10,284 nucleotides of DNA from Gemmatimonadota bacterium (GTDB lineage Bacteria > 4572-55 > J002). The DNA is taken from contig RFFQ01000145.1 in assembly GCA_003697105.1 (NCBI GenBank), forward strand, positions 1 to 10,284, in the 5' to 3' direction. The notes under the pieces were generated by a model, which worked only from the letters and a program-made list of their open reading frames with translations, made no database searches and was not told the origin of the DNA. This document shows, piece after piece, positions 1 through 10,284 of the stretch; position 1 is the first letter of the stretch; every line of letters begins with the position of its first letter. Position numbers and translations under genes: made by a program.

Positions 1-1098
1 CTAGCTGATTTCGCGACGCTCCAATTGAATCGTCACCGTCGTATATTTTCCCATTTCGGATTGTACCGATAAGTGCCCACCGTGAATTTCGGTTAAGCGG
101 CGGGCAATGATCAATCCTAAACCCAAGCCTTTTTGTTCGTACAATTTCCGGTCAAATTGGACATAAGCACCAATTCTATCAATCTGGTGGCGGCTCATGC
201 CACGTCCGTGGTCGGTTACATCCAGAATAAAATGGGTTTCTGTATTTCGGGATTTGACTTCCACCGTTGTACCGGCTTCCGAAAATTTAAACGCATTGCT
301 GATCACTTCCTCAACAAGTTTGGGCAGGTCTTTCTCGGAGACCTGAACGGTACAGGGTTCGACATCCAACACGAGGTCCTCTTCGCGCCCATATGCTTTA
401 GCGACATTCATTGCCACATAGGAGACCACACTTGCGACGCCGGTGGTTATATTTTTTTTGACCAACTCCATCTTTTCATGATCCATCAAGGCGATTTCAA
501 TTTGGGCGTATAGGAGATAATTTTTAACCAATCTATCGAGCCGGTCTGCTGATTCATAGATCGTTTCCAACATCCGGTGCAGGTCTTCCCGGTCCACGGT
601 TTTATACTCTTCCAGCAATAATTGAGTAAATCCAAGGATGGAGGTGAGTGGGGTGCGGAATTCATGGGGCAGGGCATGGATCAAGTTCCAGACCAGATCA
701 CCATCCTTTTTGGATCGGAAAGTGTCCACTTTAGTAAACCGGGCTTCGATGGCGGCGATAAGCTCTTTACCGGAAAATGGCTTCATTAGATAGTCATCTG
801 CACCCATTTCAATCCCGCGCCGCCAATGGTTGCGGTCGGTTTTCGCGGTCAAAAAGATGAACGGAATTTGTGCCAGTACGGGGTCTGCTTGAACGGCGCT
901 TAATACGTCATAGCCACTCATGCCGGGCATCATAATGTCACAAATGATCAAGTCGGGCGGGTCTTCCTGAATGCGTTTCCACCCATCCAGACCATTATCC
1001 GCCTCAATAGCCTCATAGCCGGAAACCTCTAACATCGTCGCGACATTCTCGCGGATGGTCGCTTCATCTTCAATGAGCAATATTTTTTTTCGTGGCAT
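1..1098 (-). CDS. REC-histidine kinase hybrid (response regulator fused to a cytoplasmic sensor kinase)
   Basis: 365 aa, complete; the TAG stop lies at the first bases of the window. An N-terminal receiver domain (about residues 4-122) has the acidic pair E10/D11, phospho-acceptor D54 in a CDIMMPG context, T84 and K106 before PF. A HisKA dimerisation domain follows directly, with H145 in LPHEFRTPL. The HATPase_c domain (about 250-360) shows N268 (N box), D296-G298-G300 (G1) and GLGLGL at 324-329 (G2). There is no signal peptide, membrane segment or PAS/GAF input, so it should be a soluble kinase whose own receiver is the input. The ATG at 1098 is supported by AGGA 5 nt upstream, inside the end of the preceding gene, which stops only 2 nt before this start; translational coupling is likely. 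It is last in the CheW-kinase-kinase run. The partner that phosphorylates D54 and the acceptor of H145 phosphate are unknown. All catalytic motifs are intact. Confidence 0.93.
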   Translation of the reverse strand: MPRKKILLIEDEATIRENVATMLEVSGYEAIEADNGLDGWKRIQEDPPDLIICDIMMPGMSGYDVLSAVQADPVLAQIPFIFLTAKTDRNHWRRGIEMGADDYLMKPFSGKELIAAIEARFTKVDTFRSKKDGDLVWNLIHALPHEFRTPLTSILGFTQLLLEEYKTVDREDLHRMLETIYESADRLDRLVKNYLLYAQIEIALMDHEKMELVKKNITTGVASVVSYVAMNVAKAYGREEDLVLDVEPCTVQVSEKDLPKLVEEVISNAFKFSEAGTTVEVKSRNTETHFILDVTDHGRGMSRHQIDRIGAYVQFDRKLYEQKGLGLGLIIARRLTEIHGGHLSVQSEMGKYTTVTIQLERREIS

Positions 1099-1100
1099 TG

Positions 1101-2651
1101 TTATCCTGCTTTGGCTTGATAGAGAATTGGAATATGAACCGTAATCACGGTACCCTGAGTTATGTTACTTTCCAGATGGATCGTCCCACCATGCAACTGG
1201 ACGGCGCGATGCACCATGAATAACCCCAACCCGGTGCCGGGGATATTTTCGACCGGTTTTGCCCGGTAAAACGGGTCAAAGATGTGGGCTTGGTCGGCTT
1301 CGGGAATCCCGGGACCCTCATCGGCAACCATTAACCGGATGTCCTCATCCGTATAAGTGATAGTAAACCGGATCGCTTTATCCGCGGGGGTGTATTTGAT
1401 GGCATTTGAGAGCAAGTTCCGAATAATCACTTCCAACAACCACTTGTCGAGCCAGTACCGGCGGGAACTACCGTTGGTATGAAAATCGATCCGGTGTTTT
1501 TGCAAATCGAGTTGCCGTTCGGACTGAAGCAGATCAAGCGCAAATTGATCCAAATTCAGTGGTTCCGGGTTAAACTGGATGGAATTCGCCTCTAATCGAC
1601 CGGTATTGAGGACATCTTCTAGCATACAGGTCATGTGCTGAATGGCGGCACGGATTTTATCATAGCGCTTTTGGCGTTGTTCCGGTGACATTTGGTCGCC
1701 AAAAGATTCCAGTAGCTCACTGGAGGAGCCGATAGCCGTCAACGGTGTCCGAAACTCGTGCGAAACCATCGTGATAAACCGGCTTTTCAGTTGGTGGAGT
1801 TCTTGTTCTTTTTTAAGGGCGTCATATAAATCTGAGGTTCGTTCGGCTACTTTTTTTTCAAGTTCGTCATTCATCGTTTTTAACGCATTTTCCGTCGCTT
1901 TGCGCTCAGTAATATCCTCGCTAATCGTAATCAAGGCGATGGGCACCCCCTGTGCGTTTTGGACGGTGGTGGAAATCAGTTGTACCGGAAATGTTGAACC
2001 ATCTTTGCGGACATTCACACTCTCCCGTCGCCAATTTGAAAGGGGTTTGGTGATTTCAAAATCGGAGCGTTGAACTGCAGATGGACCGGCAAAGATCTTC
2101 GCAGACTTCCCAATGAGTTCCGCAACGGTATAGCCGTGCATTCTGGCTTCCATTGGGTTTACATAGATAATGGTTTGGTTCAAATCGGTAATAGTGACAC
2201 CGAGTTCAATCGTCTCAATAGCTTCTTTTAGCAGTTGCAAATGTGCTTCATCCTCCTGTTGTTTTTGCCGTATCTGCGCGTGTGTTTCCGCGAGGGTCAT
2301 CCGGATTTTCAGAAGGTTCGGGTCAATAGGTTTCGCCAGATAATCATCCGCCCCTGCTTCTAAAACCGCAGGAAGATGATCCAGCCCTTCATCCAATGCC
2401 GTCATGACTAATATGACGCTAGGGGATTTTTGGGATAGGTTGCGTAACGCCCGGCAGATGGCGAGTCCATCTATATCCGGCAAGACTAAATCCAGCAACA
2501 CAATCGGAAAATCGTTATGTCGGTAGGCTTCTAATGCGGGTTTGCCCTCCGCAAATGCAGAGACTGGATACCCGAAATCCACCAGTGTTTTCTCAAGCCA
2601 GCGTTGGGTCAACAGGTTGTCTTCGATGAGCAATACGTTCGGAGTCGCCAT
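1101..2651 (-). CDS. REC-PAS-histidine kinase hybrid
   Basis: 516 aa, complete. Domain order: receiver (about 5-122; E10/D11, phospho-acceptor D54, T84, K107), a short helical linker, PAS (about 138-250, ending in the ISEDITERK signature typical of a PAS/PAC C-terminus), a charged coiled coil (about 251-290), HisKA with H298 in VSHEFRTPL, and HATPase_c with N416, D444/G446/G448 and G472-L477 (GTGLGL). All motifs needed for autophosphorylation are present. No transmembrane segment is visible, so it is predicted cytoplasmic and senses through PAS plus phosphorylation of its receiver. The start ATG at 2651 is 6 nt after the stop of the CheW-CheW gene, and an AAGGTG Shine-Dalgarno lies within the last codons of that gene (9-nt spacer). 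Co-transcription with both neighbours is therefore very likely. The ligand of the PAS domain cannot be read from the sequence. Confidence 0.93.
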   Translation of the reverse strand: MATPNVLLIEDNLLTQRWLEKTLVDFGYPVSAFAEGKPALEAYRHNDFPIVLLDLVLPDIDGLAICRALRNLSQKSPSVILVMTALDEGLDHLPAVLEAGADDYLAKPIDPNLLKIRMTLAETHAQIRQKQQEDEAHLQLLKEAIETIELGVTITDLNQTIIYVNPMEARMHGYTVAELIGKSAKIFAGPSAVQRSDFEITKPLSNWRRESVNVRKDGSTFPVQLISTTVQNAQGVPIALITISEDITERKATENALKTMNDELEKKVAERTSDLYDALKKEQELHQLKSRFITMVSHEFRTPLTAIGSSSELLESFGDQMSPEQRQKRYDKIRAAIQHMTCMLEDVLNTGRLEANSIQFNPEPLNLDQFALDLLQSERQLDLQKHRIDFHTNGSSRRYWLDKWLLEVIIRNLLSNAIKYTPADKAIRFTITYTDEDIRLMVADEGPGIPEADQAHIFDPFYRAKPVENIPGTGLGLFMVHRAVQLHGGTIHLESNITQGTVITVHIPILYQAKAG

Positions 2652-2657
2652 CTGAGA

Positions 2658-3725
2658 TCACACCTTTTCATCTACAATCAATTCACCTTTGATTAGTAAT
2701 TTCGGAACATCAATCAGTGCCATCATTTTACCCCTAAAGGGTGCAGTTCCCTTTAGATATCCTTCGCTGATGGACTGCACGGCTACCGGAATCGACCGCA
2801 TTTTCGATTCATCCACATAGGTAATTTCCAAAATTTGGTCCACCAGAATCCCCACCTGCAGGGAATCAACCCCCGTGACAACAACTTTTGTGGTACCGGT
2901 AACGGACAAATAGTTCATATTCAACGCGCCGGAAATATCCAGCAACGTTAGAATTTCCCCGCGCAAATTCATACACCCGATAATATGCGGCGGGCAACAG
3001 GGAATAACCGTAATCGCGGTAACATCGGCAAATTCCCGCACCACCTCAAGGGGGAATCCAAAATATTCGCTATTTAAACCGACAACGGCGACCGGTGTTA
3101 AACCTTTCAGGTCATGGCTTTCCACCACGAGCCGCAACTCTTGGGCACGTCGCTGGAAGATTTCACGTTCTTCTGGGGTAGCCTCAGGACAAAAGATATT
3201 CGGATTGGTAAATTTGTGTTTTATTGTTTCCGTTTCGTCATCTATTTCTGCCAGTTCATCTTTTAAGTCTTCATCAAAAAAATCACCCCGAATCAAGTTA
3301 TCGGGATCAATTAGCATGATGATTTTATCATCCAATGTCGCTTGTTGGGCAATCAGATGATTTGATTTGGGGAGACCGTTCCGTCGAGCTGTTTTAATAT
3401 CATTCGGATCGATGGAGACCACATCAAACACCTGATTCACAATCAACCCGATCCAGAAATCTTCCGTGGTATCCAGCACCAGCACCATATCCGTAAGATA
3501 GTAGCACCGGCGAGCATGTTCAAAACGCAAGTTGATATCCATCACCGGAATAATTTTACCCCGCATATTGACGACCCCGACCACATACTCAGGGGCTTCC
3601 TCAATGGGCGTTAATTCGGGTAGCCAAAAAATCTCTTTAACACACGTGGTGGGAACACCGTAGAGCAGGTTTTCGATTTTAAATATCAGATAGGAATGCT
3701 GAGCTACTATCTGCTGTCCGGTCAT
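2658..3725 (-). CDS. Tandem CheW-domain chemosensory adaptor (CheW-CheW)
   Basis: 355 aa. Two complete CheW (SH3-like) domains lie in one chain, about residues 10-148 and 208-348. Each has the family core G(V/C)(V/M)N(M/L)RG: N53-G56 in the first and N253-G256 in the second. The arginines R55 and R255, exactly 200 residues apart, align by eye with the receptor/kinase-contacting Arg of classical CheW. The domains are joined by a strongly acidic linker (about 151-170) and a helical stretch (about 184-202). There is no receiver domain, so it is not a CheV. CheW couples chemoreceptors to CheA; a double CheW could bridge two partners or array units, which is inference. The start ATG at 3725 has a clear GGAGG 9 nt upstream. 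It is the first gene of a three-gene run with two receiver-kinases. No CheA or receptor is in the window. Confidence 0.92.
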   Translation of the reverse strand: MTGQQIVAQHSYLIFKIENLLYGVPTTCVKEIFWLPELTPIEEAPEYVVGVVNMRGKIIPVMDINLRFEHARRCYYLTDMVLVLDTTEDFWIGLIVNQVFDVVSIDPNDIKTARRNGLPKSNHLIAQQATLDDKIIMLIDPDNLIRGDFFDEDLKDELAEIDDETETIKHKFTNPNIFCPEATPEEREIFQRRAQELRLVVESHDLKGLTPVAVVGLNSEYFGFPLEVVREFADVTAITVIPCCPPHIIGCMNLRGEILTLLDISGALNMNYLSVTGTTKVVVTGVDSLQVGILVDQILEITYVDESKMRSIPVAVQSISEGYLKGTAPFRGKMMALIDVPKLLIKGELIVDEKV

Positions 3726-3734
3726 GGTTCATTG

Positions 3735-3739
3735 CCTCC
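3735..3739 (-). promoter_or_regulatory. Ribosome binding site of the CheW-CheW gene
   Basis: GGAGG on the minus strand, 9 nt before the ATG at 3725. It is the strongest Shine-Dalgarno on this strand. It selects this ATG over another ATG 7 nt upstream that is out of frame. Confidence 0.7.
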
Positions 3740-3898
3740 ATTCGGATATTAGGAAACCATTAGGAACGTCAACAGGATACAAAATTCACACCACTATTTT
3801 TATACTTGTACTTGAAAACCCATAATTGATTTATTGACATGAAGTTATATCCCTATTGTTGGGGAAATGCACAAAAAGGGAGAAAAACGAGGGAGGCA

Positions 3899-3936
3899 TC
3901 TTGACGGTAAAAAAGCCGCCAAGAATCAAGTCAAGA
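3899..3936. promoter_or_regulatory. 7-bp inverted repeat enclosing a sigma-54-like element upstream of CheW-CheW
   Basis: TCTTGAC at 3899-3905 and GTCAAGA at 3930-3936 are perfect inverted copies separated by 24 nt. On the minus strand between them is TTGGC (ending at 3918) and TTAC (3910-3907), in the -24/-12 register of sigma-54 promoters. The normally invariant G of the -12 GC is A here. Either a regulator operator or a degenerate sigma-54 site is possible; the adjacent gene encodes a sigma-54 activator, which makes it worth noting. No function is proven. Confidence 0.25.
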
Positions 3937-3954
3937 AATGAAATATCAAATTTA

Positions 3955-3991
3955 CCAGCCGGTTACGCTTGTAAAACAACCGCCAGTCTGG
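3955..3991 (-). repeat. Imperfect stem-loop after the NtrC-type gene
   Basis: On the minus strand, CCAG/CTGG (3988-3991 with 3955-3958) and CGGTT/AACCG (3978-3982 with 3960-3964) give nine base pairs with an asymmetric internal loop and a 13-nt apical loop. It begins 8 nt after the TAA of the regulator gene. It has no U-tract, so it is not a standard intrinsic terminator; it may be a 3'-end stabilising hairpin, a weak attenuator, or chance. Confidence 0.3.
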
Positions 3992-3999
3992 GGAGAGTG

Positions 4000-5370
4000 T
4001 TACGAGGTTTGCAGTTGAATATGGTGTTTTTGTAGTTTCTGCCAGAAGTTTTTCCAATGCATACCAGACCGGCGGGCGGCTTCCCGGGCATTGCCGTTAC
4101 TTTCTTGTAAGGCACGAATCAGGTAATCACGCTCAAATTCCGCTTTTGCCTGCTGGTAGGGTAAAAAACCCGCCGGCTTCCGGTCATTCTGGGAATGTGG
4201 CAGGTCGAGGTCAACCCGTTGAATGGTGGAGGTCTGGGTTACGAGCAATGCTTTTTGAATCACATTTTCTAATTCACGCACATTACCCCGCCATTCATGC
4301 CGGATCAGCGCTTGCATTGCGGCGGGCGAGAAATCCCGCACCGCTTTATTAAATTTTTGACTATATTTTTGCAAGAAATGCAGTGCCAAGGGGGGAATAT
4401 CCTCGGGGCGATCTTGTAAAGGGGGTACAATAATTTTGACCACATTCAGGCGATAATATAAATCTTCCCGAAAATCTCCGCTGGCAACCCGGTCTTCTAT
4501 ATTTTGATTGGTGGCGGCGATAAATCGGACATCAATTTTTTGGGGGTGGGTTGATCCAACCCGGCGAATCTCGTTTTCTTGTAGCGTCCGCAGCAGTTTC
4601 ACCTGTGTACTCAACGTGAGTTCAGTGACTTCATCCAAAAACAAGGTTCCACCGGATGCGGCTTCAATCAGCCCGATGGCGTGACGATCTGCACCGGTAA
4701 ACGCCCCTCGGACATGCCCAAAAAGTTCACTTTCTAGCAGGCTATCAGGTAACGCGCCGCAATTGACCGGCAAAAAGGGATGTTGGCGGCGTGCACTGGA
4801 AAAATGAATTGCCCGCGCCACTAATTCCTTGCCCACACCACTTTCCCCTTCCACAATCACCGGAACATCCGTACTGGCAACCATTGCCACTTGTCGTAAC
4901 ACCTGTTGCATTAAGTGGCTCTGCCCGATGATTGAGCCAGCAACATTCACGTGTTGCAACTGTTTTTGCAAGGTGTCCACCCGTCGCCGTAATTTTTGCT
5001 GTTCGAGCAGCCGTTCGATCCGGTACGCGAGGTCTTTGAGTTCAAAGGGCTTTGTAATATAATCATCAATGCCATGCCGGAGCAATTCTACGGCATGGTC
5101 GACGTTGCCGTAAGCGGTGATTAAAATCGTGGCGGTATAGGGTGAAATCGCCCGAATGCGTTTCAAGATCACATCGCCGGTGACATCCGGTAATCTGAAA
5201 TCGGAGACAACAAGGTCGTACACGTTGCTTTCCACAAGCTTTAATCCGGCGGCGCCACTCATGAGCGAGGTGACCTCGTATTTCTCGGCGCGTAGCAAAT
5301 ATTCCAGATTTTCCAGCAGGGTTTCATTATCTTCGATAATCAAAATTTTAGCGGTGCGGAGGTTCATCAT
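4000..5370 (-). CDS. NtrC-family sigma-54-dependent response regulator (REC-AAA+-Fis HTH)
   Basis: 456 aa, complete and of normal length for the family. The receiver (about 7-122) has E13/D14, phospho-acceptor D57, T85 and K107. The AAA+ domain (about 145-380) has Walker A GESGVGKE (175-182), the sigma-54-contacting GAFTGA loop (222-227) intact, Walker B GGTLFLDE (D246/E247) and the RGNVRELENV sensor-II region. A Fis-type helix-turn-helix closes the protein (about 425-452). Phosphorylation of D57 should drive oligomerisation and ATP-dependent opening of sigma-54 promoters. The gene starts 6 nt after the CheR-TPR stop with only a weak GGTAAG in front, so translation is probably coupled to that gene. 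Two adjacent ATG codons (5370 and 5367) make the exact start uncertain by one residue. The CheR coupling suggests a chemosensory pathway controls its phosphorylation, although either neighbouring histidine kinase could also do so. Its target promoters are not identified. Confidence 0.95.
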   Translation of the reverse strand: MMNLRTAKILIIEDNETLLENLEYLLRAEKYEVTSLMSGAAGLKLVESNVYDLVVSDFRLPDVTGDVILKRIRAISPYTATILITAYGNVDHAVELLRHGIDDYITKPFELKDLAYRIERLLEQQKLRRRVDTLQKQLQHVNVAGSIIGQSHLMQQVLRQVAMVASTDVPVIVEGESGVGKELVARAIHFSSARRQHPFLPVNCGALPDSLLESELFGHVRGAFTGADRHAIGLIEAASGGTLFLDEVTELTLSTQVKLLRTLQENEIRRVGSTHPQKIDVRFIAATNQNIEDRVASGDFREDLYYRLNVVKIIVPPLQDRPEDIPPLALHFLQKYSQKFNKAVRDFSPAAMQALIRHEWRGNVRELENVIQKALLVTQTSTIQRVDLDLPHSQNDRKPAGFLPYQQAKAEFERDYLIRALQESNGNAREAARRSGMHWKNFWQKLQKHHIQLQTS

Positions 5371-5376
5371 ACTAAC

Positions 5377-6873
5377 TTACCGGCAAGAGGTTATATTTTT
5401 GAGTTCATTGCATAAATCCGCCACCGTGACGTGATACGGCTCAACAAGTTGGTCTGCCTCCAATTGGGTGAGCAAGCTCAGCGCGATAGCTCGCATTTTT
5501 TGAGCGCGTTTGGAGTCACCATCCCTATCATAAAGATGGGCTAAATCCAGATACGCCGGCACAAACTCAGGGGCGGCATAGATAATCTTTTTATAATATT
5601 CCCGGGCATCTTTCAGGTTGCCTTGTTCTTCCGCCAGATGCGCCAGTAAATAATAAGGTTTTGGGGCGTAGGGGTCAATGCGCAGTGCTTCCCAGCAACA
5701 TTCTGCCGCTTCGGTGTATCGCGCCAGATTCGCGTAGCTTTCCGCCAAAAGTTCGTAGGCTTCCAGTATATCCCGCTGTGTTTGGAGTTGCTTACCTAAC
5801 ATATCAATGACTTCCGTATAACGTCCCAAGCGGAATGCGGCTTTAGCATCCTCTAGGGGAGAAGCCAGTACTGTTTTTGCTTCGGGTGGCTTTACAATGG
5901 GGACAACAACCGGTGGTAATTTTCGTGTTGGCGGCGTACTGACGTCCATCTGGTTGCGTTCGACGAGGGGTTCCGGTACGGTGGGTTTCGTGACACTGGG
6001 GAAGGTTTTCAGGGTAGAAAACGGGTCGGAATGGTGAGCCGAATCATCTCGTTGATAAATGACCGATTCTGGGAAAAAACGGGCTTTAAGATGGTCTAAC
6101 GGTTGATCATATAACTCGGAATGACCGGTAATCAAATACCCGCCGGGGCGGAGCGTTTGGGCAAACTTTTGAACCACCGCCTGAATTGCCTCCCGGTGAA
6201 AATAGATAAACACATTGCGGCATAGAATCACATCCATATCGTGTATACCGGTCTGGTACTCCGGGAAGATATCCTGACGTAGATTACCGGTACGAAAGGT
6301 CACCATCCGGCGGATAGAGTCCACAATCTGCCATCCCCGCCGCCCTCGATGAAAATAGGTTTCTTGCACCTCCGGGGCGACCATCCGGAACGACCACGCG
6401 CCATAGTGACCTTGACGGGCGCGGTCGATGGATGATTTATTGATGTCCGTCCCTAAAATGAAGATGTCCCACTCCTGCCAATCTGGGAGGAGTTCTGATA
6501 GCAGAATCGCCACGGAATAAGGCTCTTCACCGGTGGAACAACCGGCACTCCAAATGCGTAACTTCCGCTCCTGCCGGCGATGGTCAACAATCTCCGGCAA
6601 TAAGTGATCCCGTAAAAGTTTGAACTGCCCTTTATCCCGGAAGAAAAAGGTTTCTGCGGTGGTTAGCCCTGCGACCAGTTTGTTCCACTCCAAATGTGAA
6701 GCGGGCGTATTTGATGTTAATCGCGAAAGATATTCGCGTTCACCGGTGATCCGCAACACACGCATCCGGTCTTGAACGGCTTTGTCCAGTTTGGGATAGT
6801 CCTCCTGCCGCAAAAAAAGGCCGGTATGCGCTAAAATTACCTCTTTAAATTGATTAAGCAACACACTATCCAT
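5377..6873 (-). CDS. CheR-type chemoreceptor glutamate methyltransferase with C-terminal TPR repeats
   Basis: 498 aa from the ATG at 6873. The reading frame can extend 8 codons to a GTG at 6897, but that lacks a Shine-Dalgarno and CheR proteins normally begin as the ATG form does; a GGGA about 10 nt before the ATG is modest support. The N-terminal helical CheR domain holds LTTAETFFFRD (70-80). The SAM-binding domain has WSAGCSTGEEPYS (108-120), the acidic TDIN (D143) and CRNVFIYF (218-225). A proline/valine-rich linker (about 277-340) leads to three or four TPR-like repeats (about 341-470). The protein should transfer methyl groups from SAM to receptor glutamates; the TPR array probably handles partner binding, as in the CheR-TPR protein FrzF of Myxococcus. 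It is first in a unit with the NtrC-type regulator 6 nt downstream. A methyl-esterase (CheB) is not seen in the window. Confidence 0.93.
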   Translation of the reverse strand: MDSVLLNQFKEVILAHTGLFLRQEDYPKLDKAVQDRMRVLRITGEREYLSRLTSNTPASHLEWNKLVAGLTTAETFFFRDKGQFKLLRDHLLPEIVDHRRQERKLRIWSAGCSTGEEPYSVAILLSELLPDWQEWDIFILGTDINKSSIDRARQGHYGAWSFRMVAPEVQETYFHRGRRGWQIVDSIRRMVTFRTGNLRQDIFPEYQTGIHDMDVILCRNVFIYFHREAIQAVVQKFAQTLRPGGYLITGHSELYDQPLDHLKARFFPESVIYQRDDSAHHSDPFSTLKTFPSVTKPTVPEPLVERNQMDVSTPPTRKLPPVVVPIVKPPEAKTVLASPLEDAKAAFRLGRYTEVIDMLGKQLQTQRDILEAYELLAESYANLARYTEAAECCWEALRIDPYAPKPYYLLAHLAEEQGNLKDAREYYKKIIYAAPEFVPAYLDLAHLYDRDGDSKRAQKMRAIALSLLTQLEADQLVEPYHVTVADLCNELKNITSCR

Positions 6874-6917
6874 CTGAAACCATTCCCGGCAAAACACACA
6901 TTAAGTCCGTAAATGAG

Positions 6918-7002: not shown

Positions 7003-7031
7003 TTGACACAACTCTGTTGATATATTAAAAT
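7003..7031 (+). promoter_or_regulatory. Sigma-70-type promoter of the GAF/PAS pseudokinase gene
   Basis: A perfect TTGACA at 7003-7008 and TAAAAT at 7026-7031 (5 of 6 to consensus) are separated by exactly 17 nt. Transcription should start near 7038, leaving a leader of about 50 nt before the ATG at 7088. It is by far the best promoter-like sequence in the window. Confidence 0.65.
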
Positions 7032-7087: not shown

Positions 7088-9022
7088 ATGACGATTGTCC
7101 ATCCTGAGCCTAAATTTAATCTGAATGAGGTATTGGATCGAATTGATGTGCGCCAATTGCTGGCTAATTATCACCAGTTGTTCCATAGTGAATGGCTCAT
7201 TGTAGATGATACCGGAAGCGTGTTACACCAAGTACCCTCTCAAGTCTCTCTTTCTGGAGATGAAAAGGCTCAGGTGATAGCCACACTTGCCGGGCAGACG
7301 TACTATATTGACGAACACGAAGCACCGCGGGTCGTATTCGGCGCAGCCCTGAAACTGTGGAACCGGAATTGGGGGTTTGTGGTGGGCACATCCACCGAAC
7401 CGGTGGAAAAAGTCCGCTTGAGCCTACAAATGTTGTCTGAAACCCTTATCTACCGCCTCTCTAAAGAATTTGAGATCGAAAATATTGCTCAGGAACTGCT
7501 AGGTCAATACGAGCATCTGGAACTCCTCCACGACATCAGCTACAACATCGTTTCCCATCTGGATATCCCCACTACCACCCAATTTGTGCTGGAGAAAGCC
7601 ATTGAAATCATCGACGCAGAAGATGGCGCCTTGCTCCTTTTTGAGCAATACAATTCGGAGAAAAATCTATACATTGATTCCGTCAGCAGTTATCAAAAAC
7701 GGGGCGAAACATTACCGGAACAGACCCGTCACGGGTTGGATGAAACGGTGATCGAGCGGCTGATAAATGAAGGTGAAGCTATTGTAGATAACCATGTGGA
7801 ACGCGAAATTTTTCTGGTAAACGGAGACCCCCGCACCCGCATCCGGTCGGCACTGTGTATTCCGATGAAGACAAAGGAATCCGGTGTTTTAGGTGTGGTC
7901 ATTCTCATCAACAAGCGAGACACCACCGGCTTTACCTCTATGGATAAAAAATTACTGATCACCCTGACCACACAAGCCGGGCACATGCTGAAAAATGCGT
8001 ACTTGTTTCACAGTCTGCAACGGGAAAAAAAGAGCATTGAACGCATCATGGATACCACCGCGGATGCCATTATTGTTACGGATCAGAACTTCCAACTGGT
8101 ACGTATCAATGAAAGTGCAAAAGCACTTTTTCATCCGGAAAACAACACGGCAGACCCGAAACTGGCGGTCATTTTGTACAAGTTAGAAACCCTCAAAGCG
8201 GAGGCGGCGTACTTTGATATTGCGTTTATGACCCCGCAAAGCACGATTTTATCCGTTCGCGCCAAAAAATTATGGGAAGACCAGCACGAACCCGCCGGCT
8301 GGGTGATTTCCTTCCAAAATATCACCGCGTTAAAAGAAGACGAACGGAAACGGCGCGAGATTGTTTCCTTTCTTGCCCAACCGATTCCAGTCGAAGCCGC
8401 TAATCTGATCGCCAAAATGTATCACCTGAAACAGCAGGTGCCACCGGAAACCGTGAATCCGGCAATGAAACATGCCAAACAAATCCAAAAACAGGCACAC
8501 CGCCTATGGAACTTTTTACAAATCATCGCCGGTCCCCTCCGTTTGGAACGTTCCAACATCAATGTGAACCGTTTGATTGAGACCACCATCGAACAAAAAT
8601 CCTATCTATTTGATGAGAAAGCCATTCGCGTGGAACTTCAACTCCCCGACGAACCCCTCATCAGCCGTATTGACCAAGACTGGTCCCAACAACTCATCGA
8701 AAGTTTGCTGGAAAATGCTATCCAAAGTTCCGCCCCCCATACCGCGGTACAAGTGCAACTCGAAGGACATCCCAGTGAGATTGTCATCCGCGTCATCAAT
8801 GCCGGAAAAGGGGTTACCGATGAAGAACGCCGGTTATTATTCGATCCCATGCAACAATTGGAAGCCGTCGAACAAATGCACTGGGATGAAATTCGGATGG
8901 GGTTACCGTTTGCAAAGCACATCGTTGACGCTCATGGCGGCACATTGCATATCTCTTCCATCGAAGAGAATCCCGATGAGTGTATTGTGGAAGTAGTCCT
9001 GCCGCATGTTCATCATTTTTAG
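7088..9022 (+). CDS. GAF-PAS sensor protein with degenerate histidine kinase core (putative pseudokinase)
   Basis: 644 aa, soluble. Residues about 20-115 form a small sensor-like domain, followed by a helical connector (about 118-150) of the kind seen before GAF domains in signalling proteins. A GAF domain spans about 150-305 and a PAS domain about 315-418. The C-terminus (about 420-642) has the layout of HisKA plus HATPase_c but with key changes. Where the H box (F-x-x-HELRTPL) should be, the sequence reads FLAQPIPVEAAN, with Q431 in place of His and the RTP lost. The N-box N543 is kept. The G1 aspartate is N571 (VINAGKGV), and the G2 glycine-rich loop is reduced to IRMGLP (602-607). Autophosphorylation is therefore unlikely. 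The open frame is long and otherwise well conserved, so it is not a simple decayed gene. It has its own sigma-70-like promoter, is divergent from the CheR unit, and is followed after 15 nt by a small DUF3006-like gene. A role as sensor scaffold or allosteric partner of the nearby kinases is inference. Confidence 0.9.
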   Translation: MTIVHPEPKFNLNEVLDRIDVRQLLANYHQLFHSEWLIVDDTGSVLHQVPSQVSLSGDEKAQVIATLAGQTYYIDEHEAPRVVFGAALKLWNRNWGFVVGTSTEPVEKVRLSLQMLSETLIYRLSKEFEIENIAQELLGQYEHLELLHDISYNIVSHLDIPTTTQFVLEKAIEIIDAEDGALLLFEQYNSEKNLYIDSVSSYQKRGETLPEQTRHGLDETVIERLINEGEAIVDNHVEREIFLVNGDPRTRIRSALCIPMKTKESGVLGVVILINKRDTTGFTSMDKKLLITLTTQAGHMLKNAYLFHSLQREKKSIERIMDTTADAIIVTDQNFQLVRINESAKALFHPENNTADPKLAVILYKLETLKAEAAYFDIAFMTPQSTILSVRAKKLWEDQHEPAGWVISFQNITALKEDERKRREIVSFLAQPIPVEAANLIAKMYHLKQQVPPETVNPAMKHAKQIQKQAHRLWNFLQIIAGPLRLERSNINVNRLIETTIEQKSYLFDEKAIRVELQLPDEPLISRIDQDWSQQLIESLLENAIQSSAPHTAVQVQLEGHPSEIVIRVINAGKGVTDEERRLLFDPMQQLEAVEQMHWDEIRMGLPFAKHIVDAHGGTLHISSIEENPDECIVEVVLPHVHHF

Positions 9023-9037: not shown

Positions 9038-9250
9038 ATGATTGTTATTTATGAACGCCTTAGCGCCGGTATTGCCATTTTTGAGAGCAAAGCTGGGTCC
9101 GTGTTGGAAATAAAAGTAGAAGAACTGCCGGCTCACGTGCGACCCGGCGAAGCATATCAGGTGGAATGGAAAGCGGCACCAGAAGTCACGGCGGCATATC
9201 GCCAGCAACTCCAGCAATTGGAACAAGAGACCCGATCTATCCCGGATTAG
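9038..9250 (+). CDS. Small DUF3006-like protein
   Basis: 70 aa. The N-terminal 45 residues look like a small beta-rich fold: hydrophobic strands around MIVIYERL, GIAIFES and VLEIKVEELP, then a PGEAYQVEW strand. This resembles the DUF3006 pattern (short proteins starting with an I-V-D/E-R-F-like strand, an A-V-I/F-E strand and an L-P motif near residue 30). The last 25 residues form a glutamine/glutamate-rich helix. There is no signal peptide or membrane segment. It follows the pseudokinase gene by 15 nt with a good Shine-Dalgarno, so the two are probably co-transcribed. Its last 14 nt overlap, tail to tail, the 3' end of the broken kinase on the other strand. The family's function is not known to me, and the DUF3006 assignment is from memory of the pattern and not from a search. 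Confidence 0.7.
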   Translation: MIVIYERLSAGIAIFESKAGSVLEIKVEELPAHVRPGEAYQVEWKAAPEVTAAYRQQLQQLEQETRSIPD

Positions 9251-9597
9251 CCACCGGAAAATAAAGCGAAAAGGTGGAACCCTCGTTTACCACACTAGAC
9301 ACTTCGATTTTACCCCCCATAATCTTCATTGCCTGTTTCACAATTGCCAAACCAATGCCTAACCCTTGTTGTTCCCGCTCATCGCGATTATATTGGTAAA
9401 ATGGCTCAAAAATTAGCGGTATAACTGCCAGAGGTAAACCGATACCATTATCGGTCACGGTTACCGTCACGTAGTTTTCCACATAACCAAGCTCGACATC
9501 GATTTGTAATGAACGTTCCGGAGCGGCGAACTTGCGGGCATTATCCAGCACACGTAACAGCACATCATCCAGTAAATCCGGGCAGACCAAAGCAAGC
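9237..9597 (-). pseudogene. 3' part of a broken REC-histidine kinase: HATPase_c domain
   Basis: This frame has no ATG start: its first possible initiator is a TTG at 9590. It begins in the middle of a kinase fold and carries a complete HATPase_c C-terminus, with N box LDNARKF, G1 DNGIGL and G2 GLGIGL followed by the usual IVKQ helix and GG. It ends at a TAG at 9237. Upstream residues continue smoothly from the REC-HisKA fragment if one C is removed from the C5 tract at 9598-9602 (minus strand): the protein would then read TSDTPLALVCPDLLDD. So this is the severed C-terminal half of one kinase, displaced by +1. The ATP-binding motifs are intact, suggesting recent breakage or an error in the read at a homopolymer. 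Its 3' end overlaps the 70-aa gene by 14 nt. Confidence 0.8.
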
Positions 9598-10284
9598 GGG
9601 GGTATCTGAAGTTATAATATCGCGTAGCGTTAATTCCGGGTGCGCCGTACCGAAAGTGCGGATCGCCGTTTGAACCCGTGCCAGTAAAGGGATCGATTCA
9701 CAGTGTTCCCGGTACAGAAAAAAACCACTATCTGACTGCAAATAAATCAATTGGGTAAAGTCATCCATTAATTTGGAAATCCGATTACATGCCCAGCGCA
9801 TCATGTGAAGCCATTCTTGAAGTTGGTCTGGAGTAAACTCGATTTCCGGGCAGGTCAGTAAATCCGTCCAGCCCTGAATGGTCGTGAGCGGGGTCATAAT
9901 TTCATGGCGGAGATGAAATAAAATATCATTTTTCAGACGGTCGGCTTCCTGAGCGATCACTCGGCGGCGTTCTTTAGCTCGTTTGAGTTTACCTTTTACT
10001 GTCGAGATCAAATCCATACTTTCAAAGGGTTTTTTGATATAGTCATCAACACCAAGTTCTTTGCCAAACCGCACATCTGGGAGAGCGGTTTTCGCCGTGA
10101 GAAACACAAACGGAATGACCGCCAATTCAGGGTCATTCCGTAACTGATTATCAAAATCGTACCCGTTCATTTCCGGCATCATTATATCAATACCTTCGCC
10201 AAAAGTGACCTTTTAGGCTGTATGAATAGCGCCAATTCCGGCGAGATGGTTTTTGATTTGTTGAATTAAAATTGGGTGAGCCAA
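9565..10284 (-). pseudogene. 5' part of a broken REC-histidine kinase: damaged receiver plus HisKA
   Basis: From 10188 downward the frame encodes the second half of a receiver (phospho-acceptor Asp codon at 10188-10186 before IMMPEMNGYDF, FLTAKT, DDYIKKPF), a coiled linker and a HisKA domain with a normal H box, LRHEIMTPL. After the C5 tract it runs into an unrelated tail and stops near 9565. Upstream, the same frame has a TAA at 10215-10213. Beyond it, up to the window edge, it encodes QQIKNHLAGIGAIHTA, which resembles receiver helix 1 and strand 2. Only about nine codons separate that stop from the Asp, where a receiver needs around 18-20, so a short deletion is also implied. The start of the gene lies outside the window. 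The first usable ATG (10182) would give a receiver without its Asp or acidic pair. The layout matches the intact REC-kinase at 1-1098, a likely paralogue. Confidence 0.75.

Follow-up and report, generated by a model that had tools for sequence, protein, structure and literature searches.

What can a protein built like a histidine kinase still do once the histidine that should be phosphorylated is gone? This question is raised by a 644-aa protein encoded in a 10,284-nt stretch of DNA (hereafter the window), which is the entire contig (C21) of a 4.18-Mb draft genome (G000). The genome belongs to GTDB phylum 4572-55, or Candidatus Cenuriota, a phylum of two genomes (4.09-4.18 Mb) recovered from sediments of deep-sea hydrothermal vents and from a hot spring rich in iron (PMC11382960), both of which make up its share of the sampled set. 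In agreement with the original prediction of a full-length gene, the open reading frame is free of internal stops over all 644 codons. The strong promoter that had been claimed is a fair description of an 11/12 pattern match for which 0.3 occurrences would be expected by chance. The features of the locus are as follows.

7003-7031, plus strand: sigma-70-like promoter match TTGACA-17-TAAAAT (11/12 positions; pattern match only)
7088-9022, plus strand: pseudo-histidine kinase gene, 644 aa, with N-terminal region, GAF, PAS, DHp-like hairpin and CA (HATPase_c)
7088-7558, plus strand: N-terminal region, residues 1-157 (no Pfam match)
7559-7990, plus strand: GAF domain, residues 158-301 (Pfam GAF_2, 44 bits)
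8036-8332, plus strand: PAS domain, about residues 317-415 (weak Pfam PAS match at 317-350)
8339-8551, plus strand: DHp-like hairpin lacking the phospho-acceptor His, residues 418-488 (no HisKA match; from alignment)
8378-8380, plus strand: Gln431 at the phospho-acceptor His position (from alignment; Gln also in the 4572_55 orthologue)
8531-8542, plus strand: GPLR motif, G482-P-L-R485 (clade-invariant as GP[LMV]R)
8672-9004, plus strand: CA/HATPase_c domain, residues 529-639 (Pfam HATPase_c, 49.6 bits)
8714-8716, plus strand: Asn543, the N-box Mg ligand, retained (from alignment)
8798-8800, plus strand: Asn571 in place of the G1 adenine-binding Asp (from alignment)
8891-8908, plus strand: degenerate G2 loop IRMGLP, I602-P607 (from alignment)

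Divergent from the pseudokinase gene, positions 1-6897 (minus strand) carry genes for a CheR-TPR protein, an NtrC-like regulator, a double CheW, a REC-PAS-HK and a REC-HK. Directly 3' of the pseudokinase, at 9038-9250 (plus strand), lies a 70-aa DUF3006-like gene, whose score of 27.6 bits falls below the Pfam cut-off of 32.3. At the contig end (9237-10284, minus strand), a REC-HisKA-HATPase gene is spread over at least two overlapping frames (9237-9590 and 9565-10182) with its start in another frame, reflecting either a frameshifted gene or contig-end errors.

The loss of catalytic motifs is apparent from the protein itself. A Pfam scan that recognises HisKA in the REC-kinases nearby found none in this protein. 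It was aligned with 24 canonical homologues, which without exception possess the His, the N-box Asn, the G1 Asp, both G1 glycines, the F-box Phe and the G2 Gly-Leu. Missing from the window protein are the acceptor His (Q431), the G1 Asp (N571) and the first glycines of the G2 GxGxG loop (IRMGLP); the HATPase_c domain is retained with its N-box Asn (N543). Together with a check of the residue numbering, this alignment confirms the Gln at the His position and the intact N-box Asn that had been described from the sequence. Since the acceptor His is absent, the usual autophosphorylation should not occur; with the E/DxxT/N phosphatase motif missing as well, the protein should be neither a kinase nor a phosphatase. 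The same genome also encodes a canonical kinase of the same architecture (contig C143, L012:6101-8908), with the H-box SHKLRTPL and the same N-terminal region, which is also found in the Cenuriota orthologue described below. The gene for this canonical paralogue lies directly 3' of folP and a cdaA-like diadenylate cyclase gene.

The window protein alone gave no match among the genome contigs, and a search with a two-row alignment matched only one protein, the sole relative within the phylum, encoded on contig NBMB01000015.1 of 'Candidatus Cloacimonetes bacterium 4572_55' (G001) at 29% identity. At the His site this orthologue likewise carries Gln, within REIVSxLAQ, and the segment FLQIIAGPLR(L/I)ER is common to both proteins, so the loss of the acceptor is a shared state of the two. 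The remaining substitutions are less general. Pro432 is present as originally described, but it is not a family feature, as the orthologue has Lys at this position, like many active kinases. Similarly, Asn571 and IRMGLP are real but largely specific to the window copy within the phylum: the orthologue retains the G1 Asp and most of G2 (GLGL), and may therefore bind ATP, while erosion of the nucleotide site has gone further in the window copy. Conservation between the two genomes, proposed at the outset as a check, thus holds for the Gln and not for the G1 Asn. An orthologue with canonical motifs, which was looked for as a sign of decay in this copy alone, was not found, nor was any alternative His conserved beyond the two Cenuriota proteins.

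Profile searches recovered additional relatives from two further phyla, placing the window protein in a clade that spans three phyla with branch support of 97-99. The hallmark of this clade is GP[LMV]R following the DHp-like hairpin, present in 21/21 aligned members and 0/24 canonical homologues; the frequency inside the clade is partly a matter of construction, because members were gathered with motif-containing profiles and then labelled by the motif, while the absence from canonical homologues is not. A maximum-likelihood tree separates the clade from the 24 canonical homologues (support 99/93), and the split persists at 97/97, with the window protein inside, once four long-branch rows and the columns for H, N, G1, F, G2 and GPLR are taken out. 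The two Cenuriota proteins group with two His-keeping cNMP-PAS members (98/92). Catalytic positions vary freely, and erosion differs from branch to branch: the His site is occupied by Q in both Cenuriota proteins, T in one lineage, Y in two, and R, N or, in a few members, H, the last lacking other kinase motifs. Considering that His is kept in some members and differently replaced in others, the acceptor probably disappeared on more than one occasion. Most members have a KPE motif in the PAS domain (TPQ in the window protein), and the sensor domain ahead of PAS varies, with cyclic-nucleotide-binding or FHA domains instead of, or besides, GAF (L081, L086, L095, L097 and L175). Judged from the alignment, what the clade conserves is the non-catalytic part of the protein. 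Two observations bear out the idea of a pseudokinase that is maintained and takes GAF and PAS inputs: the Gln shared with the phylum's other genome and, throughout the clade, the erosion of the active site alongside conservation of a non-catalytic motif.

A possible function is indicated by the genomic context of the clade. Its genes are usually followed, on the same strand and often with overlap, by a gene for a 140-170-aa protein with a HATPase_c_2 domain. Among 24 distinct GP[LMV]R loci, labelled from sequence independently of their neighbours, one stops at a contig end and two are from Cenuriota; in the 21 others, such an RsbW-like gene adjoins downstream in 19 and is fused in-frame in one (20/21 in total), the exception being G458:C151, where thrS is the downstream neighbour and no partner is adjacent. 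By comparison, an RsbW-like gene adjoins none of 73 canonical kinase loci, each with at least 600 nt of downstream sequence. In the fusion (L158:1504-2928, minus strand, contig G458:C228), the HATPase_c of the pseudokinase module and the HATPase_c_2 of the RsbW-like protein lie in one polypeptide; the search showed one TAG inside the matched frame. The partner has the HATPase_c_2 fold with the catalytic Glu, Asn and G1 Asp typical of RsbW/SpoIIAB proteins, its profile matches SpoIIAB and RsbW structures, and Glu50, Asn54, Asp85, Gly88 and GGRG, which align with SpoIIAB, are invariant in 11/11 aligned partners. It retains what a serine kinase needs and is predicted to be active. No STAS or sigma factor gene was seen as a conserved neighbour of the pair in the clade loci.

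In the window, no RsbW-like gene lies directly downstream of the pseudokinase gene, its place being taken by the DUF3006-like gene. Searches of both Cenuriota genomes nevertheless identified an unlinked partner in each. The one strong candidate in the window's genome is on contig C7 at about 47,093-47,527, where the search matched 47108-47518 (163.8 bits vs 74.5 for the next best match), and the one in the 4572_55 genome (143.7 bits vs 74.6) is likewise not adjacent to the pseudokinase. In a tree, both fall among the linked partners (95/92) and apart from the paralogues of their own genomes; each genome has one such paralogue accompanied by a STAS gene. Contig C83 of the window's genome encodes a candidate STAS protein. 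The C7 partner (L172:7094-12633) is flanked by panB and a gene for an mscS-like channel, after which come PilZ, cheW, cheY, cheA and one cheC-like gene. At a threshold of E ≤ 1e-30, the partner subfamily occurs in 5/386 genomes; these are precisely the five with clade members, the window's genome among them. The test is strong without being wholly independent, because the profile was derived from 11 linked neighbours (the Cenuriota partners being outside it), and the count takes no account of kinship among genomes that are not phylogenetically independent. Copy numbers of pseudokinase and partner are 1:1 in the eight genomes compared, including 2:2 in G468 and 3:3 in G458, where one of the three partners is unlinked.

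Taken together, these observations are best explained, at a probability of about two-thirds, by a maintained pseudo-histidine kinase that relays GAF and PAS signals to an RsbW-like kinase. Because clade members almost always adjoin or are fused to this kinase, the pairing suggests that the role of the dead kinase is to steer a living RsbW-type kinase. The GAF and PAS domains would sense signals in a protein that is most likely dimeric, held together by its DHp-like hairpin, a structure of a kind expected still to dimerise. A signal would reshape the helices of the hairpin together with the conserved GPLR linker, and the altered region would bind or release the RsbW-like kinase, activating or silencing it with respect to a target of its own, probably a client of the STAS or sigma type. 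The natural docking site for the partner would be formed by the GPLR linker and the conserved signal helix. A single operon supplies both proteins in most lineages, with the partner gene lying elsewhere in the window's phylum.

Other explanations fit the evidence less well. It had originally been suggested that the pseudokinase regulates the neighbouring REC-kinases by heterodimerising, and in a DivL/RetS-like version of this idea it would bind those kinases or their receiver domains, modulating them by heterodimer formation or docking. REC-HK genes do share the window with it, and DivL provides a precedent for a His-less kinase able to read a receiver (PMC4211667). However, the pseudokinase gene is divergent from the REC-kinase cluster, no two-component gene occurs within about 8 kb of the 4572_55 orthologue or as a conserved neighbour at other clade loci, and conservation of the H-box region does not extend across the clade; the clade's regular companion is the gene for an RsbW-type serine kinase. 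Regulation of the REC-kinases is therefore improbable, and an equally low chance is given to a shared regulatory input, in which pseudokinase and RsbW-like kinase would have a common target without making contact. The latter would accommodate the unlinked partners of Cenuriota, and direct binding of the pair is something that we infer; the in-frame fusion of both proteins and their 1:1 copy numbers in eight genomes argue against it.

Phosphorylation by another route is more doubtful still. The protein could be phosphorylated on a different residue, such as His446, or in trans by an intact kinase, and in support of this, His446 aligns with a His in the 4572_55 orthologue, whose G1 Asp and GLGL are compatible with ATP binding. 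Yet His446 lies 15 residues past the acceptor site and is absent from the rest of the clade, and an alternative acceptor at the His site itself is rejected, since the residue there (Q, Y, T, R, N or H across the clade) is not a conserved one. The least credible explanation is a decaying gene or an assembly error, to which the frameshifted REC-HK gene at the contig end might point. Against this stand the intact frame over 644 codons, the promoter match and the occurrence of the same His to Gln change in an independent genome at 29% identity, on account of which a pseudogene or assembly error was rejected.

NifL of Azotobacter combines PAS domains with a histidine-kinase-like module and acts by binding a partner, the activator NifA, rather than by phosphotransfer. 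A similar mode of action is proposed for the clade, although its partner is a GHKL serine kinase instead of a transcription activator and the likeness comes without demonstrated orthology. AlphaFold models built from two-row alignments reached a mean pLDDT of 48 and 43, and a Foldseek search with the first of these low-pLDDT models returned histidine kinases, phytochromes and NifL (PDB 9qq6), which serve only as a lead because TM-scores were about 0.3 over the whole model.

Further parallels are found in other regulatory systems. DivL of Caulobacter works without kinase activity and reads the receiver DivK~P (PMC4211667). Like the clade proteins, it has PAS and DHp-CA modules with the acceptor His replaced across homologues (Tyr in DivL); unlike them, it has intact N, G1, F and G2 motifs (PMC4211667). 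The clade erodes these (Q431, N571 and IRMGLP in the window protein), carries GPLR and pairs with an RsbW-type kinase. RsbT binds the helical linker of RsbU and also occurs with histidine kinases that have RsbU N-domains (PMC12143880), and the clade may resemble this arrangement, in which a stand-alone RsbW-related protein engages a dimeric sensor enzyme at its helical linker. However, RsbT controls the sensor enzyme, in a setting of RsbU N-domains and stressosome genes, and the kinases there are not described as degenerate (PMC12143880). RsbT-RsbU linker binding and DivL demonstrate that both halves of the proposed mechanism occur in nature. The partner itself resembles the anti-sigma kinases RsbW and SpoIIAB (1til, 6m36) in sequence and keeps their catalytic and nucleotide-binding residues, but it scores below the NCBIfam equivalog cut-offs (about 42-52 bits vs 135-155) and has no conserved STAS gene beside it. 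As in the clade fusion, a sensor domain and an RsbW-like kinase are united in one polypeptide in Rv1364c of M. tuberculosis (3ke6; PMC12143880), where a PP2C phosphatase stands as the middle domain instead of a degenerate histidine kinase. A pseudokinase-RsbW pair was not described in the literature searched, in which coverage of subscription papers was thin.

With slightly better than even confidence, the clade is considered a previously undescribed module that joins two-component and partner-switching signalling, in which a histidine kinase scaffold without catalysis serves as a sensor and binding regulator of an RsbW-type kinase in at least three phyla, with a course of erosion that differs by phylum. 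To our knowledge, the pseudo-histidine kinases described so far are for the most part isolated examples (DivL, RetS and RocA), and annotation pipelines are likely to label the clade proteins as histidine kinases. Here, a whole pseudokinase family would be recognisable by one non-catalytic motif and a genetic partner, offering a testable route by which a signal from a two-component-type sensor may reach a serine kinase or anti-sigma factor without phosphotransfer.
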